From Mesorhizobium sp. M7A.F.Ca.US.006.01.1.1 (lineage in GTDB: Bacteria > Pseudomonadota > Alphaproteobacteria > Rhizobiales > Rhizobiaceae), in assembly GCF_003997935.1 (NCBI RefSeq), contig NZ_RZQL01000003.1, forward strand, positions 1-64,000: DNA of 64,000 bases, read 5' to 3'. The translations under genes were made by a program, and so were the position numbers. Positions 20,730 to 26,788 of the stretch are shown here, piece after piece. Under the pieces are notes generated by a model. It worked only from the letters and a program-made list of their open reading frames with translations, made no database searches and was not told the origin of the DNA. Within the stretch, counting starts at the first letter, position 1; the number at the start of each line of letters is the position of its first letter.

Positions 20730-20896
20730 GGATGCGGCCTTTCCGAGTGTCCTTCTCGTTGGCCACCCTACCGACTGCCTAATGCGCCACAGCCGACTTG
20801 TCGAGGGTGCAGGCGCGGTCGGCGCGCAGGCTGGGGTGCGTGCCGTTATTCGCGATCATGGTGCGGCCAATTCCCGCTTGCCCCAAAGCTACGAAG

Positions 20897-20928
20897 AAAA
20901 ACCCGCCGGATTGCTCCGGCGGGTTTTT
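20897..20928 (-). terminator. Strong bidirectional terminator after the secreted-protein operon
   Basis: AAAAACCCGCCGGA pairs perfectly (14 bp) with TCCGGCGGGTTTTT around the tetraloop TTGC. It starts 22 bases beyond the stop of the 1280-residue protein gene, so it ends that operon; T-tracts exist in both directions. Confidence 0.9.
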
Positions 20929-20949
20929 GGTCTCGTGTCGAGCAGGTGG

Positions 20950-23900
20950 TTATTGCTGCTGGAGCTTCAGGATCCTGTCTGGAACCTGATCCTGCTGCTG
21001 TTCGACCTGCGGCCTGCGCCGTGGCAGGACCTGCTGCAGCAGCAGGCCGGGGTTGAGCTCCAGCGACGGTTGTCCGCGGACGGGCCGGCAGTTCGGATAC
21101 CGCCCGATCGTGCCTTCCGGGCAGCGCCTCCTGATGATCGGCTGGCACTGGCCATTGATCATCTGCGAGCCCGGTGCGCATTCCACCTCCTGCCTGCGGC
21201 ATGCGCCGTTGATCACCTCGGTGCCGCGCGGGCAGACACACTCGCCGCGCTTGTTGTGGACCTGGCCGCGTATGTCGCATTGCTCCTGTGTCGGCTGCTT
21301 GCGCCGGCAGGCATTGCCCCGCACCTCGGTACCCCTCGGGCAGACACAATTGCCGTTGGCGTCGTGGACCTGGCCACGGATGGTGCACTGGTCAGGCTTT
21401 GGCCGGATCGGGCGGCAGGCGCCATTTCTGACCTCGTTCCCTTGCGGGCAGACGCAGTCTCCGTCCGCGTCGTGAACCTGACCACGGATGATGCACTGCT
21501 CAGGCTTCGGCCGGATCGGGCGGCAGGCGCCATTGCGCACCTCGGTGCCTCTCGGGCAGACACAGTCTCCGTCGGCGTCGTGGACCTGGCCACGGATCGT
21601 GCACTGCTCAGGCTTTGGCTGGATCGGGCGGCAGGCATTGCCCCTGATCTCGGTTCCCCTGGGGCACACACAATCGCCATCCGCATTGTGGACCTGACCG
21701 CGGATGGTGCACTGCTCGGGCTTGTCGGTCCTGACACATCTGCCATTCTCGAGCCCGGTTCCGCGTGGGCAGACGCAACGTCCGTCCTCGGTGCGGATCT
21801 GGCCTTCGAGCAGCACGCAGCGCTTCGGCGGCGGCGGCGTTGGCAGAATATTGGTACCACCGCCGGTGCACTGGCCGTTGCGGAAGGTGGTGCCTTCCGG
21901 GCAGACGCAGCGCCCGGCGTCGTTCATGACGAAGCCTTGCGAGCATTCCTTCTTCGTCTCCTGGCTGATGGTGAAGGGATGGCAAGCATAGGCCTTGCCG
22001 CGATCGCCCTGCACATTTGTCTGATCGCCGCCAAGCACGTCGCCACCGCCCTGCACCCGTGTGTCGGGAGAGAGCACGCCGACGCAGTTCTGGCCGCTGA
22101 CATTGCCCTGCAGATTGCCCAGGCGACCGTCGTCGGGAATGACCACGGTGACATGGTGCACCCGGCTTTCGCCGGCGCCGAGCGTCAGGTTGGCAACGCA
22201 GGACGCAGGCAAGGTTGCCGGTTCCGGCGAGCAGCCGAAGGGCGGATCGATCGACGTGATCTCAACGCCTTCCAGCCTGCCGAGACCCTCCACGCCGATC
22301 GCATCGCCGATACGGACCGGCCGGGAAAAGGCGGTCGCTCCGTCATTGGTGATGGCGATCTCGAACGAGCAGGGTTGGCCGAGCCTGCATTCGCGGTCGC
22401 CGGTCTTTTCGACACGGATGGTCGAAGAACCGCCGCCCTTGGCGCAGGCCTGGCCAAAGGGATAGACGACGTCGTCGCCCGGCGCCGGCCCATAGGAGCC
22501 GCGCGCGCAGTTTTCGAACGCGCCATTGGCCGAGACCGTCACGTCGAAGTGGCGGCTGGTTCCGGGTGTCATGACGGCACCGGGAATCTGGCATGACAGT
22601 GCATTGGCCGGAACCGGTCCGCACGCCCACTCAGCGCCGTCAGGGGTGACGGTCTGGATCTGGACGGGCGCGCCGCCGGCCACCAGCGTGGCGGCATCGT
22701 TGACCCGCACGGGGCCGGTGGGGGCAGCGGTGCCAAGGCTGATGACGGTGATTCGGCAAGAGATGACCGCGGCACCGGCGAGCGAACCGTTGCACACCTT
22801 GGTGATGCGCAGGGTCGACTTGCCGCCATTGGGATGACGGAAGCGTTCCTTGGCGCAGGCCTTGTTGTTGGTGAGATCGTTTTCACCGGGGATGGGCTTC
22901 ACCGCGGCGCAGTTCTCCACCGTGTCCGACTGGTAGCCGGCCGGCATGACCGCCTTGACGAAGATCGGCGTCGAGGCGCCCGCAGGCAGCGAGATGCCGG
23001 CATTGTCGCAGCGGAACTGGCCGGGTCCGTTCGGTCCGCATGTCCAGGGCGGGCTCGGCCCGAAGGTCGAGGAGGACGGCGCGCCGCCGGGATAGCTGTC
23101 GGTCACCGTCAGCGGCCCGTTATAGGTCGATGTGCCGTTGTTGATGATGTCGATCACGAAGGTGCAGATGCCGTCGGCGGTGCAGACCTCGGTTCGGGCG
23201 CGCTTCTTCAGGATCAGGTCGACCTTCTTTTCGACCGGCGGCCGGCAGTCGCGGTCACGGTCACCACGCCGGCAGATCGGGATCGAGGCGCAGCCACGGT
23301 CGTTCGACTGGCTGCCGAAAAACGGCTTGCCGCTGGCGCCGTAATTATAGGTGGCGCAGTTGCGCAAGACGCTGCCTTGCCAGCCTCCGGCCGGCTTGAA
23401 ACCGAGCTTGAGGTCGACGGAGGCTCCCGGATTGAGCGTGGTCACCGGATGGGTGCAAATCATCGGGGTGGTGCCGGGTACGCAGACCCAGGGCGGATTT
23501 GGCCCTGAATCGAGTGTCGAGCCGGCCGGCAGCGTCACCTCGTCGAGCACTATCTTGCCGTGATACGGCCCGGCGCCGACATTGGTGACCTTGATGGTGA
23601 AATCGCAGCCGCCGCCCATCGTGCAACGCGTCACGTCGGCGCGTTTCTCGACCTTGAGGTCCGGCTCCTTGTCCTTGGGCGGGCATCTGAGGTCACGCGG
23701 GATGACGATGTCGATCGTCTGCGTGCAGCACAGGCCCCAGCCTTCCTTCGGACCGGCATAGGTTTCGATGCCGGTGACGATGAGGTGGATGACGTCGCCG
23801 GGCGAGGCACCGACGATCTTCCAGTTGAGCACACCGCCGCCCGCCGGCACCAGCTGGGTGTCGGGGATGATGGCGATGCCTGATGCGGTCGTCGACACCT

Positions 23901-24792
23901 GCACCCATTTGCCGCCCATCTCCGGGCCGACCGGCATATGGTAGATGAAGGCGCCGCCGCCGGGCACGCAATCGACCGTGCCGCGCTCCACCTTGAAGCA
24001 TTCCCGGTCGGGAGGCGGTGGCCGCTTATCACAGTTGGTGAGGTCGATCTTGATCGAGGTCTTGGCCCCGGTCTTGTAGTCGCCATCGTCGGGCTTGCCC
24101 GGATCTTGCGACGGGATGATGGTCCCGGGGCCGGCTCCGTTGCTGACCTTGATCACACCCTGGTTGTCGATCACGGTCGGCGAAGGAAACGCCGCATGGT
24201 CGATCTTGGCGGTGATCTGGAAATTGATGACGCGTTCATTGGCGGCACCGGCGCCGTCGAGATCGGCGGCGGAGAGCCGGAAATCGGACACCGTTGCCGT
24301 ATCGTTCGGACCGGCCGAGGTGCTGATCGAAACGCCGGGCAATGGTCCGCCCGAAGCGTCCGTGCCGTCGCCCGACACATTCGCGCTGACGATAGAAAGG
24401 CCGTGTGGAAGCTGGTCCTTGAACTCGATCTTGAGCGTTTTCAGCAGGGCTGTCAGGTCGGCGAAGGCTTGCGCATCGCCGCGCAGGCCAAAGCTCAGGG
24501 AGTAGACGACATAGTCGCAGCTCCGCTGGGTGCCTTTCTTGGTGAAGAAGGGCACCGCCCGCTCCGGCCTCGGATTGACGATTTTGGAATTGTCGAGGTC
24601 GAGCCGCAGTTCCGGAGTGATCGAAACGGCATCTTCGGCGTGGCTTGCCACAGGGGTGAACATGGCGACCGCGATACCGGCCGCCATCAGCCAGCGCGCG
24701 CCGCGCCTGGCGTATGACAGGGGTTTCATGATCGTCTCCATGACGGTTTCTTGAGTGTTGGTTGCGAGCGGGGAGAGTGCGAGATTTTTCAT
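20950..24792 (-). CDS. Large secreted protein with DUF11-like domains and seven Cys-rich repeats
   Basis: The precursor has 1280 residues and starts at an ATG with GAGGAGG upstream. An N-terminal leader with a basic stretch precedes the hydrophobic WLMAAGIAVAMFTPVASHA, a likely Sec signal. At least four DUF11-like (Ig-like, CARDB-like) domains begin near residues 379, 524, 659 and 790 (DLKVEKRADVTRC, DLILKKRARTEVC, LRITKVC, IRVEKTGDREC). From about residue 949 there are seven modules of the form C-x12/13-C-x-C-x9-C, for example CTIRGQVHDADGDCVCPRGT, with linkers such as RPIRPKPEQ. The tail is Gln-rich (QQQDQ). No LPXTG, beta-barrel or membrane anchor is visible. The domains suggest an extracellular or surface structural or adhesive protein. 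Function unknown. Confidence 0.85.
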   Translation of the reverse strand: MKNLALSPLATNTQETVMETIMKPLSYARRGARWLMAAGIAVAMFTPVASHAEDAVSITPELRLDLDNSKIVNPRPERAVPFFTKKGTQRSCDYVVYSLSFGLRGDAQAFADLTALLKTLKIEFKDQLPHGLSIVSANVSGDGTDASGGPLPGVSISTSAGPNDTATVSDFRLSAADLDGAGAANERVINFQITAKIDHAAFPSPTVIDNQGVIKVSNGAGPGTIIPSQDPGKPDDGDYKTGAKTSIKIDLTNCDKRPPPPDRECFKVERGTVDCVPGGGAFIYHMPVGPEMGGKWVQVSTTASGIAIIPDTQLVPAGGGVLNWKIVGASPGDVIHLIVTGIETYAGPKEGWGLCCTQTIDIVIPRDLRCPPKDKEPDLKVEKRADVTRCTMGGGCDFTIKVTNVGAGPYHGKIVLDEVTLPAGSTLDSGPNPPWVCVPGTTPMICTHPVTTLNPGASVDLKLGFKPAGGWQGSVLRNCATYNYGASGKPFFGSQSNDRGCASIPICRRGDRDRDCRPPVEKKVDLILKKRARTEVCTADGICTFVIDIINNGTSTYNGPLTVTDSYPGGAPSSSTFGPSPPWTCGPNGPGQFRCDNAGISLPAGASTPIFVKAVMPAGYQSDTVENCAAVKPIPGENDLTNNKACAKERFRHPNGGKSTLRITKVCNGSLAGAAVISCRITVISLGTAAPTGPVRVNDAATLVAGGAPVQIQTVTPDGAEWACGPVPANALSCQIPGAVMTPGTSRHFDVTVSANGAFENCARGSYGPAPGDDVVYPFGQACAKGGGSSTIRVEKTGDRECRLGQPCSFEIAITNDGATAFSRPVRIGDAIGVEGLGRLEGVEITSIDPPFGCSPEPATLPASCVANLTLGAGESRVHHVTVVIPDDGRLGNLQGNVSGQNCVGVLSPDTRVQGGGDVLGGDQTNVQGDRGKAYACHPFTISQETKKECSQGFVMNDAGRCVCPEGTTFRNGQCTGGGTNILPTPPPPKRCVLLEGQIRTEDGRCVCPRGTGLENGRCVRTDKPEQCTIRGQVHNADGDCVCPRGTEIRGNACRPIQPKPEQCTIRGQVHDADGDCVCPRGTEVRNGACRPIRPKPEQCIIRGQVHDADGDCVCPQGNEVRNGACRPIRPKPDQCTIRGQVHDANGNCVCPRGTEVRGNACRRKQPTQEQCDIRGQVHNKRGECVCPRGTEVINGACRRQEVECAPGSQMINGQCQPIIRRRCPEGTIGRYPNCRPVRGQPSLELNPGLLLQQVLPRRRPQVEQQQDQVPDRILKLQQQ

Positions 24793-24802
24793 CTTCCCCT
24801 CC

Positions 24803-26788
24803 TCAACGTTCGCAGCTGACGGCTGGGGTTCGGAGCGGCAAGATCATCTTGCAGCAAGGGTAGTAGCCACCCTTGTCCTTGTCGGACTTCCTGTAGAAGC
24901 AAAGTCCAACATCCACTCTGTCGCCCGGATAATGGCCGGTGATGTCGATCGTGTAAGGCTTGCCGGGCGCATGCGACTGGGATGATGTCACCCCGACGCC
25001 TGGCGTCCTGGACTTTGTCTCATTCGAAGGTTGCGCCTTGATCGAATCGCCGCCGAAGCCGGCATGGTCATGGAGATAGAGATCGGCCTGAAGGCCGCGA
25101 GGCGTACAGTAATACTGGACATCCTCGACATCGATGCACGGAGGCAGGTTGCCGGGTGGTGGGAAATCCGGCGGGTAGAAGGGGGGCAGGTAGCCGCCCG
25201 GAATTTCCTCATAATAGCCGGCGCGGCCTTCGCAAGGGTGCCAGACGGCAACGTCGCCGACATGGCCCTCGACCTCCGGGTCTTCGAAGTAACCGTCGAA
25301 ATCGACGAACCAGGAGCCGAAGGGCGGCACGTTGGCCGGCTTGACCAGCTCTTTCGGCGTGATCTGGACGCCATGCACGGCCAGCGGCCCGCCGGCGGCG
25401 AGCTGTTCGGCGAGTGAAGGATTGTCGCGCAGCTTGTCGCCTGTGTTGACCAGCGTCTGCGTGCACACAGAGGTGTCGAGATTGCCGTCGGCATCATAGC
25501 CATATTGCAAGTCTAGACCGCCGGCCGACTGCCGGTTGTCCTGCGGGAAACCGACCGCATATTCCTGCGGCACTTCGACCCAGACCGATTCCGTTTCCGG
25601 ATCGTCCGGGTTCTCTCTGAAGTAGCGGATGACCTCGCCCTTGCCGGAATCGGCGAACTGGCTGTAATCGTAGCGGTTCTCGACCGGGCCGCGCTGGGCC
25701 AGGTACATGAAGCCGCTATTGTCGAAGGCGATGTCGGTGACGGCGTAGTCCTTGTCGGCCTTGACCGTCAGTTCCCAGCGCGGGTCGCCGGCAAAACTGC
25801 CGTCGCGGGCAATGCCCACCGACCAGATTTCCGACTTTTCGCCGACCGAGTAGTAGAGCCGGCCGCCATGGTAGGAGACGCCCCAGACGCGGCGCTCGTC
25901 CTGCGTGTAGCCCCAGCTGTCGGGGTCTTCGCTGTCGAAGGCCGCGCCCTTTATGTCCATCACCGAACCATCGTCGGCGACTGGAGCAAGCCCATGCGCC
26001 GGACGGCCGGCAACGCCGTGATCGAAGCTGTCGATCAGCCTGCCTTCGGCGTCGATGCGGTGGATCAGGCCGGTATCGAGATCGGACGCGAAGAACTCGC
26101 GGTGAGTGGCGTCGAAAGTGAGATTGCCGATGCCTGGACCGCTGTTGGTGTCGATGTCGGCGAATTTGGAGACCTGGCCGGTGATGCCGTCAATCTTCCA
26201 GACGGTGCCCGGCCCGCCGCCGTTTTCGGTGCCGAACTGGCCGTCCATGAAGATGGCGCCGGCAGCGCCGCGGCGATGCCGCTCGGGGCGGCCGTCATCG
26301 TCGGCGTCCGGGGTGACGATACGGATGCCGTGCAGCGAGGTGGCGCCGGCATAGAGATTGGGAATGCCCGATGGAACGCCGTCGCGCACGCCGTCATCGT
26401 AGGCGACGCCGAACACCTGGCCGATCTGCTCCGCCGTCACCTCGAAGGGCGGCGGCGTGTTGACCAGTTGACCGGAGGCTGGGCCGCCCAGATGCGAGAC
26501 GTCGAACACGCGCAAGGTGGCACGCGTGGTGTCGATGAAGGTTTCGTCGACCGGATCGACGCCGGGCGGCAAGCCCCCTTTTTCGGAATCAGGGGGGTCG
26601 AAATTAGGAATGATGGTGCCGGAGAATCCGGTCACCGCCATCGAACCGGGATAGATGATCCGGGTTTCCTGGGCCTGGGCGGCGCCCAGCCACAGGCCGA
26701 GTGCCAGCGCCAGCAACCCGCCTGGCTGCACAGCGCGGCGCAAGCCGCCATCAAGAGACGACACGAACGAGCCGCGGATGCGAGACAT
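24803..26788 (-). CDS. Secreted protein with predicted beta-propeller domain
   Basis: The precursor has 661 residues with signal peptide [18 protein letters not shown] chose the ATG before that signal (GGGGGG site). The frame is open further upstream, but the extension would put the signal inside the protein. The central part (about residues 90-430) has propeller-like repeats: [71 protein letters not shown]. The C-terminal 200 residues have Pro-rich and Cys-containing segments ([27 protein letters not shown]). The gene is the first of a two-gene operon; the 1280-residue partner follows after 10 bases. The two probably work together outside the cytoplasmic membrane. Confidence 0.82.

Follow-up and report, generated by a model that had tools for sequence, protein, structure and literature searches.

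A two-gene operon of Mesorhizobium encoding a propeller-like protein and a probable isopeptide-type stalk protein, a candidate head-and-stalk protein in two chains

This analysis concerns a pair of adjacent genes in Mesorhizobium sp. M7A.F.Ca.US.006.01.1.1, found in a stretch of 64,000 nucleotides (positions 1 to 64,000 of contig NZ_RZQL01000003.1, RefSeq assembly GCF_003997935.1) that is called the window throughout. The source assembly (G000) consists of 562 contigs, with a contamination estimate of 6.49. Gene 1 encodes P0002, a propeller-like protein with a Cys-rich C-terminus, and gene 2 encodes P0001, a larger, stalk-like protein (Table 1). A first-pass annotation of this DNA had proposed a two-gene operon ending at a strong terminator; the operon holds, and a terminator-like hairpin follows gene 2. 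The two open reading frames (ORFs) lie 10 bases apart on the minus strand and their junction is coupled, with the TGA stop of gene 1 overlapping the ribosome-binding region of gene 2 (TGA-GGAGGGGAAG-ATG). A collection of species genomes contained 333 relatives, and the best 80 of these supplied the related loci (73 named Mesorhizobium, 3 Aminobacter, and 4 named only at a higher rank or as 'bacterium'); a Shine-Dalgarno-like motif followed by an ATG occurs within 45 nt of the gene 1 stop in 61 of these 80. The hairpin 3' of gene 2 has a folding energy of −26 kcal/mol (z −5.7), equalled by none of 200 shuffles; it is absent from the list produced by the terminator scan. The ratio of nonsynonymous to synonymous substitution rates (dN/dS) against nine relatives is 0.10-0.26 for gene 1 and 0.14-0.39 for gene 2, indicating real genes that evolve under constraint.

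Table 1. Features of the gene pair, with positions in the window.
Feature	Position	Strand	Basis
Gene 1 (P0002, 661 aa; propeller-like, Cys-rich C-terminus)	24803..26788	-	ORF
Signal peptide of gene 1, residues 1-40, end AQA/QE	26669..26788	-	read from sequence
Propeller-like region, residues 41-545, 2 Cys	25154..26668	-	weak propeller-family matches; conserved in 89/297 order genomes
Shared Cys-rich Ig-like domain, gene 1 copy, residues 546-661, 6 Cys	24806..25153	-	hhalign against gene 2 copy
Coupled junction of gene 1 and gene 2	24790..24805	-	TGA stop, GGAGGGGAAG, ATG
Gene 2 (P0001, 1280 aa; stalk-like protein)	20950..24792	-	ORF
Signal peptide of gene 2, residues 1-52, end SHA/ED	24637..24792	-	read from sequence
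DUF7929 (PF25551), residues 80-252, triad K85/D126/N210	24037..24555	-	Pfam E 5.5e-82; triad 81/81 each
Shared Cys-rich Ig-like domain, gene 2 copy, residues 265-370, 5 Cys	23683..24000	-	hhalign against gene 1 copy
DUF11 no. 1, triad K383/D417/N478	23278..23667	-	Pfam; triad 81, 80, 80 of 81
DUF11 no. 2, triad K530/D565/N627	22843..23229	-	triad 81/81 each
DUF11 no. 3, triad K665/D699/N761	22438..22830	-	triad 77, 77, 78 of 81
DUF11 no. 4, triad K796/D830/N902	21973..22434	-	triad 81, 81, 80 of 81
Cys array, seven four-Cys and two two-Cys modules	21088..21945	-	pattern, Cys positions
Gln-rich tail	20953..21087	-	read from sequence
Terminator-like hairpin	20893..20935	-	folding energy

The first-pass annotation had missed a DUF7929 domain in P0001 and a homologous Cys-rich domain carried by both proteins. 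Homology of the latter was shown with hhalign, which aligned residues 546-661 of P0002 with residues 258-374 of P0001 (probability 97.7, E 1.4e-12, score 71.9). Controls with 100 column-shuffled profiles reached a probability of 10.2 and a score of 22.2 at most, and profiles of DUF7929 or DUF11 gave a probability of 2.7 at most against the shared domain. Searched with the profile of one side, 21 of the other side's 25 copies match at E ≤0.001, the P0002 copy only at 0.0043. Four Cys and a Pro-Gly are invariant across the shared-domain alignment (17 chosen rows), and the gene 2 copy has 23-30% identity to gene 1 copies. In a structure model of P0001 residues 52-380, with a predicted local distance difference test score (pLDDT) of 65.7, the shared part is an immunoglobulin (Ig)-like sandwich. 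The top VIA row overall for this model (Z 9.1), an alphavirus E1 domain, was aligned to the shared part, so that the fold ranking on this part is unspecific.

The cysteines of the shared domain were counted in an alignment of 81 P0001 proteins (P0001 itself and its 80 relatives), on which the triads of Table 1 were also scored. The gene 2 copy has 5 Cys in 81/81 rows, the other P0001 segments have an even number in most rows, and the mature chain has an odd total in 75/81. Since the shared domain is the only part with an odd count, a free or interchain Cys may lie in this putative docking part of P0001. Pieces of the domain from outside Mesorhizobium carry 4 to 6 Cys, a spread that comes partly from local-alignment cutting.

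The two genes keep close company. Gene 2 directly follows gene 1 on the same strand in all 80 relatives, with rpe nearby in 76 of these loci. In the order, 89 of 297 genomes have a detected propeller gene and 22 have DUF7929, and in all 22 the DUF7929 gene adjoins the propeller gene. Separation of the two proteins in most genomes, which the first-pass annotation had named as the finding that would speak against it, is thus not what is seen. The propeller does exist without a separate partner, and then in one chain (32 loci, below). The shared domain is present in 26 of the 297 order genomes, spread over 11 genera, always as exactly two copies on the same contig and strand, with starts 446-1199 bases apart. 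Within the genus it is present in 119 of 146 genomes, with exactly two copies in 119/119; at most 16 (order) or 32 (genus) first-look candidates were scored per genome, so a diverged third copy could escape these counts. Conservation across rhizobia, the check suggested earlier, is uneven, in that none of the 5 other genomes of the same family that were listed has the domain. It is also absent from all listed genus genomes below 5 Mb (3.3-4.8 Mb). In genome G059 the gene 1 copy (L088, 7534-9615) is interrupted by a stop before the shared domain.

Beyond the order the family is seldom met, occurring in 5 of 385 sampled genomes of the class (the own genome included), three of them also with the C-terminal part. 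G434, G521 and G532, all from outside the order, seem to hold a propeller with the C-terminal shared part, and the two-gene form may therefore have travelled. Plasmid-borne spread of the pair was considered and is not supported, with just one weak match among 72,556 plasmid records.

P0001 is a stalk-like protein of many domains. DUF7929 was recognised by Pfam at 274 bits against a curated cut-off of 27, and DUF11 at 61.7 bits against 24.6, with two stretches above threshold. DUF11 nos. 3 and 4 were not separately recognised by Pfam and were seen by alignment and by their conserved Lys/Asp/Asn triads, which brings the number to the four DUF11-like domains first proposed. The sole NCBIfam match, TIGR01451, covers residues 121-143, outside the DUF11 domains. 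In 22 wider sequences the DUF7929 triad retains its Lys in 22, its Asp in 22 and its Asn in 20. Nearly all of the 81 rows show six Cys in every DUF11. The seven four-Cys modules described earlier were recovered by pattern, a number shared by 45 of 81 P0001 relatives (range 0 to 8). In the model of residues 52-380, the DUF7929 part resembles isopeptide pilins; the top Foldseek hit is BcpA (E 5.3e-6, template modelling score 0.31), and the best VIA rows include BcpA (Z 8.9) and GBS80 (Z 8.7). A stalk cross-linked by isopeptide bonds is likely on these conserved residues, and we infer that such bonds would actually form in P0001. As in fibrillar adhesins, a long stalk of repeated domains stands behind a signal peptide.

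The propeller-like region of P0002 is harder to place. No match to P0002 was found in Pfam or NCBIfam, and comparison of P0002 and P0001 with PDB sequences gave nothing up to E 1. Among 19 relatives, matches to SGL (E 0.03) and to Phytase-like (0.079) came from one protein each, both below curated cut-offs, and the top match of the P0002 profile in PDB is DFPase (E 0.16). An AlphaFold model made with 39 close rows in the alignment has a pLDDT of 43.7, too poor for fold reading; Foldseek with this poor model returned 50 listed rows, most of which we take to be propellers. The sequence of L155, which contains X, was left out of both structure-model alignments. The region is likely a beta-propeller, as first annotated, with weak matches to propeller families.

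Other loci encode the propeller in a single chain, mostly with DUF11. Of 56 loci that were read, 24 have two genes and 32 a single chain. A joint profile of the shared domain, run at E < 1 over the 2566 ORFs of these loci, matched only both genes of all 24 two-gene loci and none of the 32 single-chain loci; the profiles were built from two-gene members, so that the independent matches are the second genes of L063, L064 and L091 only. DUF11 was detected behind the propeller in 25 of 32 single chains with a home-made profile, one of the seven others being cut by a contig end. In the 19 chains measured, the first DUF11 begins 14-56 residues (14 chains) or 102-130 residues (5 chains) after the propeller motif GHxGD ends. 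From sequence, the single chain thus looks like the pair minus the stretch between propeller end and first DUF11, that is, minus both shared domains, DUF7929, the stop and a signal peptide. On a propeller tree of 57 rows, the two-gene label requires 4 changes; shuffled labels need 18.9 on average, and none of 500 shuffles was as low. All 22 DUF7929-type pairs fall into a single clade with strong support, which also encloses one single chain, L056, as would fit a re-fusion. Two further two-gene lineages were found on the tree, L063 with L091, and L064. Their three second genes have the shared domain, with DUF7929 unseen by Pfam; a diverged DUF7929 is visible in L063 and L091 (E 9e-9 and 3e-7).

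Several side observations concern the single chains and their surroundings. L068, L069 and L109 are distant propeller proteins (~30% identity) with few Cys; in two of them, L068 and L109, the C-terminus is a long His/Ser/Gly-rich tail. Matches to CBM_14 (chitin-binding) and TIL in some single chains were rejected, as they reflect the Cys pattern only and no stretch passed alone where seen. Beside the propeller gene lie a subtilase (S8) gene in 9 of 56 loci (L056, L067, L075, L076, L078, L079, L080, L084 and L103), an extracytoplasmic function (ECF) sigma factor gene in 8, and a third gene, perhaps for an anti-sigma factor, in 7. This subtilase/sigma cluster, not seen in the window, is divergent from the propeller gene in L079, L084 and L103. 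As it accompanies both two-gene and single-chain forms, common regulation is possible.

Both proteins are almost certainly exported, as judged by their signal peptides, disulfide-rich composition and kinds of domain; read by eye, each N-terminus begins with basic residues, continues with a hydrophobic stretch and closes with an AxA-type end. Together with the adjacency in all 80 relatives, this agrees with the earlier description of two large secreted proteins conserved together. That description had also stated that P0001 has no recognised anchoring or secretion domain. Pfam and NCBIfam indeed recognised no anchoring or sorting, secretion or outer-membrane domain in P0001 or P0002; an N-terminal domain, DUF7929, is now recognised. 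DUF7929 and DUF11 are mainly described from surface proteins in the accessible part of PMC12617251, and by the company that DUF11 keeps there an outer-surface location is likely.

We propose that the pair is one exported head-and-stalk protein of the envelope or surface, made in two chains and joined by docking domains, a proposal to which we give an even chance. Gene 1 would supply the propeller-like head, whose C-terminal Ig-like Cys-rich domain would dock on its homologue in P0001. The stalk would come from gene 2 and consist of DUF7929, the docking domain and four DUF11 (CLIPPER-type) domains, each of which would be locked by a Lys-Asn isopeptide bond and three disulfides. The disulfide-rich C-terminal array would probably retain the complex at the cell envelope, and the whole would most likely be an adhesin-like or matrix fibre. 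The docking domains would be dispensable once head and stalk share one chain, and removing in one deletion everything between the propeller and the first DUF11 would convert the pair to the single chain. Adjacency, the homology of the two domains, their exact doubling, their absence from single chains and the triads are computed; docking between the chains, the envelope or surface place and adhesion are what we infer from sequence. As expected of a two-chain complex, the homologous domain sits on both chains and is absent from single chains. A more specific version, that of an isopeptide-locked fibre with a detachable head, in which a homologous Ig-like docking pair replaces a covalent joint and the unpaired gene 2 Cys may bridge the chains, is a tentative idea that we hold to be doubtful.

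The best surviving alternative, which is nevertheless unlikely, is that the shared domain is a common address that brings each chain to one third partner, which could be an export factor, a receptor in the outer membrane or a glycan; the propeller would then be a separate binding protein or enzyme. SGL/DFPase-type folds, which the propeller resembles, include hydrolases, and the strong divergence of the two copies would suit two proteins that visit one receptor. An address should however be kept in one copy by the single chains, where the joint profile found none, and a genome with one copy was never met in the 26 order and 119 genus genomes. A common address or a relic predicts one copy in single chains or in some genomes, and joining of the chains is therefore the simplest reading.

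It is also rather improbable that the pair is a scaffold of the periplasm or wall, an internal envelope frame bound to peptidoglycan rather than a surface adhesin. Of the 32 single chains 11 have PG_binding_1, as do 3 of 25 second genes, making a wall-bound place possible, and only Sec-like signals accompany the lack of a recognised secretion or outer-membrane domain in P0001 and P0002. In L054, L059, L063, L065, L099, L101 and others, PG_binding_1 follows the DUF11 core and precedes the apparent last strand, and looks like an inserted wall-binding domain. Against such a frame, P0001, P0002 and the other DUF7929-type second genes, bar those among the 3 of 25, have no PG_binding_1 at E 0.01, and the surface proteins from which DUF7929 and DUF11 are mainly reported argue for a place further out. 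Least probable by far are two ordinary exported proteins linked by expression only, the shared domain being an old duplication without a present role; operon structure alone would explain adjacency in close relatives and DUF11 proteins are common, but the invariant Cys in both copies (81/81) and retention of the pair in deep branches of the propeller tree, across 11 genera, speak against it.

Some results weigh against the proposed head-and-stalk protein itself. The DUF11 stalk is not universal, as 7 of 32 single chains lack a detected DUF11, three of the 32 being distant. By eye, the DUF7929 remnant of two more distant pairs seems to have no Lys. The odd Cys of the gene 2 copy would suit a homodimer equally well, the number in gene 1 being even. 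The Cys array of P0001 has no known anchor, and the PG_binding_1 domains hint at peptidoglycan over the outer surface. VIA Z-scores of ~8-9 barely exceed the noise level of the tool, and both models are weak by pLDDT.

If the version with a detachable head is true, the order would provide natural plugged and fused versions of one machine, with heads that could be exchanged or shed. For DUF7929 there is now an operon with a partner gene, and a logic open to testing, in which head and stalk are separate or fused. This would bear on rhizobial surface biology and on protein evolution, where the question is how a docking pair and a covalent joint come to substitute for one another.

Most known adhesins with intramolecular isopeptide bonds come from Gram-positive bacteria. 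The fold of the modelled DUF7929 region is like that of Gram-positive pilins and MSCRAMM adhesins (BcpA, GBS80, RrgB, Sgo0707), whereas P0001 shows no sortase signal, belongs to a Gram-negative organism, and has no noticed pilus genes. The likeness of P0002 to SGL/NHL/DFPase beta-propellers is a weak resemblance of sequence and fold, with all family matches under curated cut-offs and an unreliable model. Among the matches listed, open-licence literature on DUF11, isopeptide bonds, beta-propellers and the Mesorhizobium exoproteome yielded no paper on the pair and no experiment or expression data. As far as their accessible parts go, the DUF term of PMC3420878 is DUF1109, and PMC2605481 and PMC6256036 are unrelated to the gene pair.

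The nearest known systems are the fibrillar adhesins with DUF11, renamed CLIPPER (PF01345), an isopeptide domain solved by crystallography (Lys715, Asp748, Asn806), as described in the accessible part of PMC12617251. P0001 resembles them in its tandem DUF11 domains, signal peptide, Lys/Asp/Asn triads and many disulfide Cys, with triad spacings of 34 or 35 (Lys to Asp) and 61 to 72 (Asp to Asn), where the paper has 33 and 58. The pair differs in its separate-chain head, its C-terminal Cys array and the lack of a known sorting domain. In the same source, DUF7929 is a predicted isopeptide domain only, CnaA-like, with Lys86, Asp129 and Asn213 in the reference A0A090G7K7, and a partner gene goes unmentioned in that part of the text. 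The reference spacing of 43 and 84 is that of the Mesorhizobium relatives L145, L180 and L185; in P0001 it is 41 and 84, with Lys and Asp 41 rather than 43 residues apart. Single-chain relatives within the order (e.g., L054, L057, L062, L101) have the propeller, DUF11 and Cys repeats as in the pair, but in one chain, without DUF7929 and the shared domain, and some with PG_binding_1. Our verdict from sequence is that the pair is genuine and conserved and represents an isopeptide fibre protein in a two-chain variant, in which the putative docking joint is the new idea.

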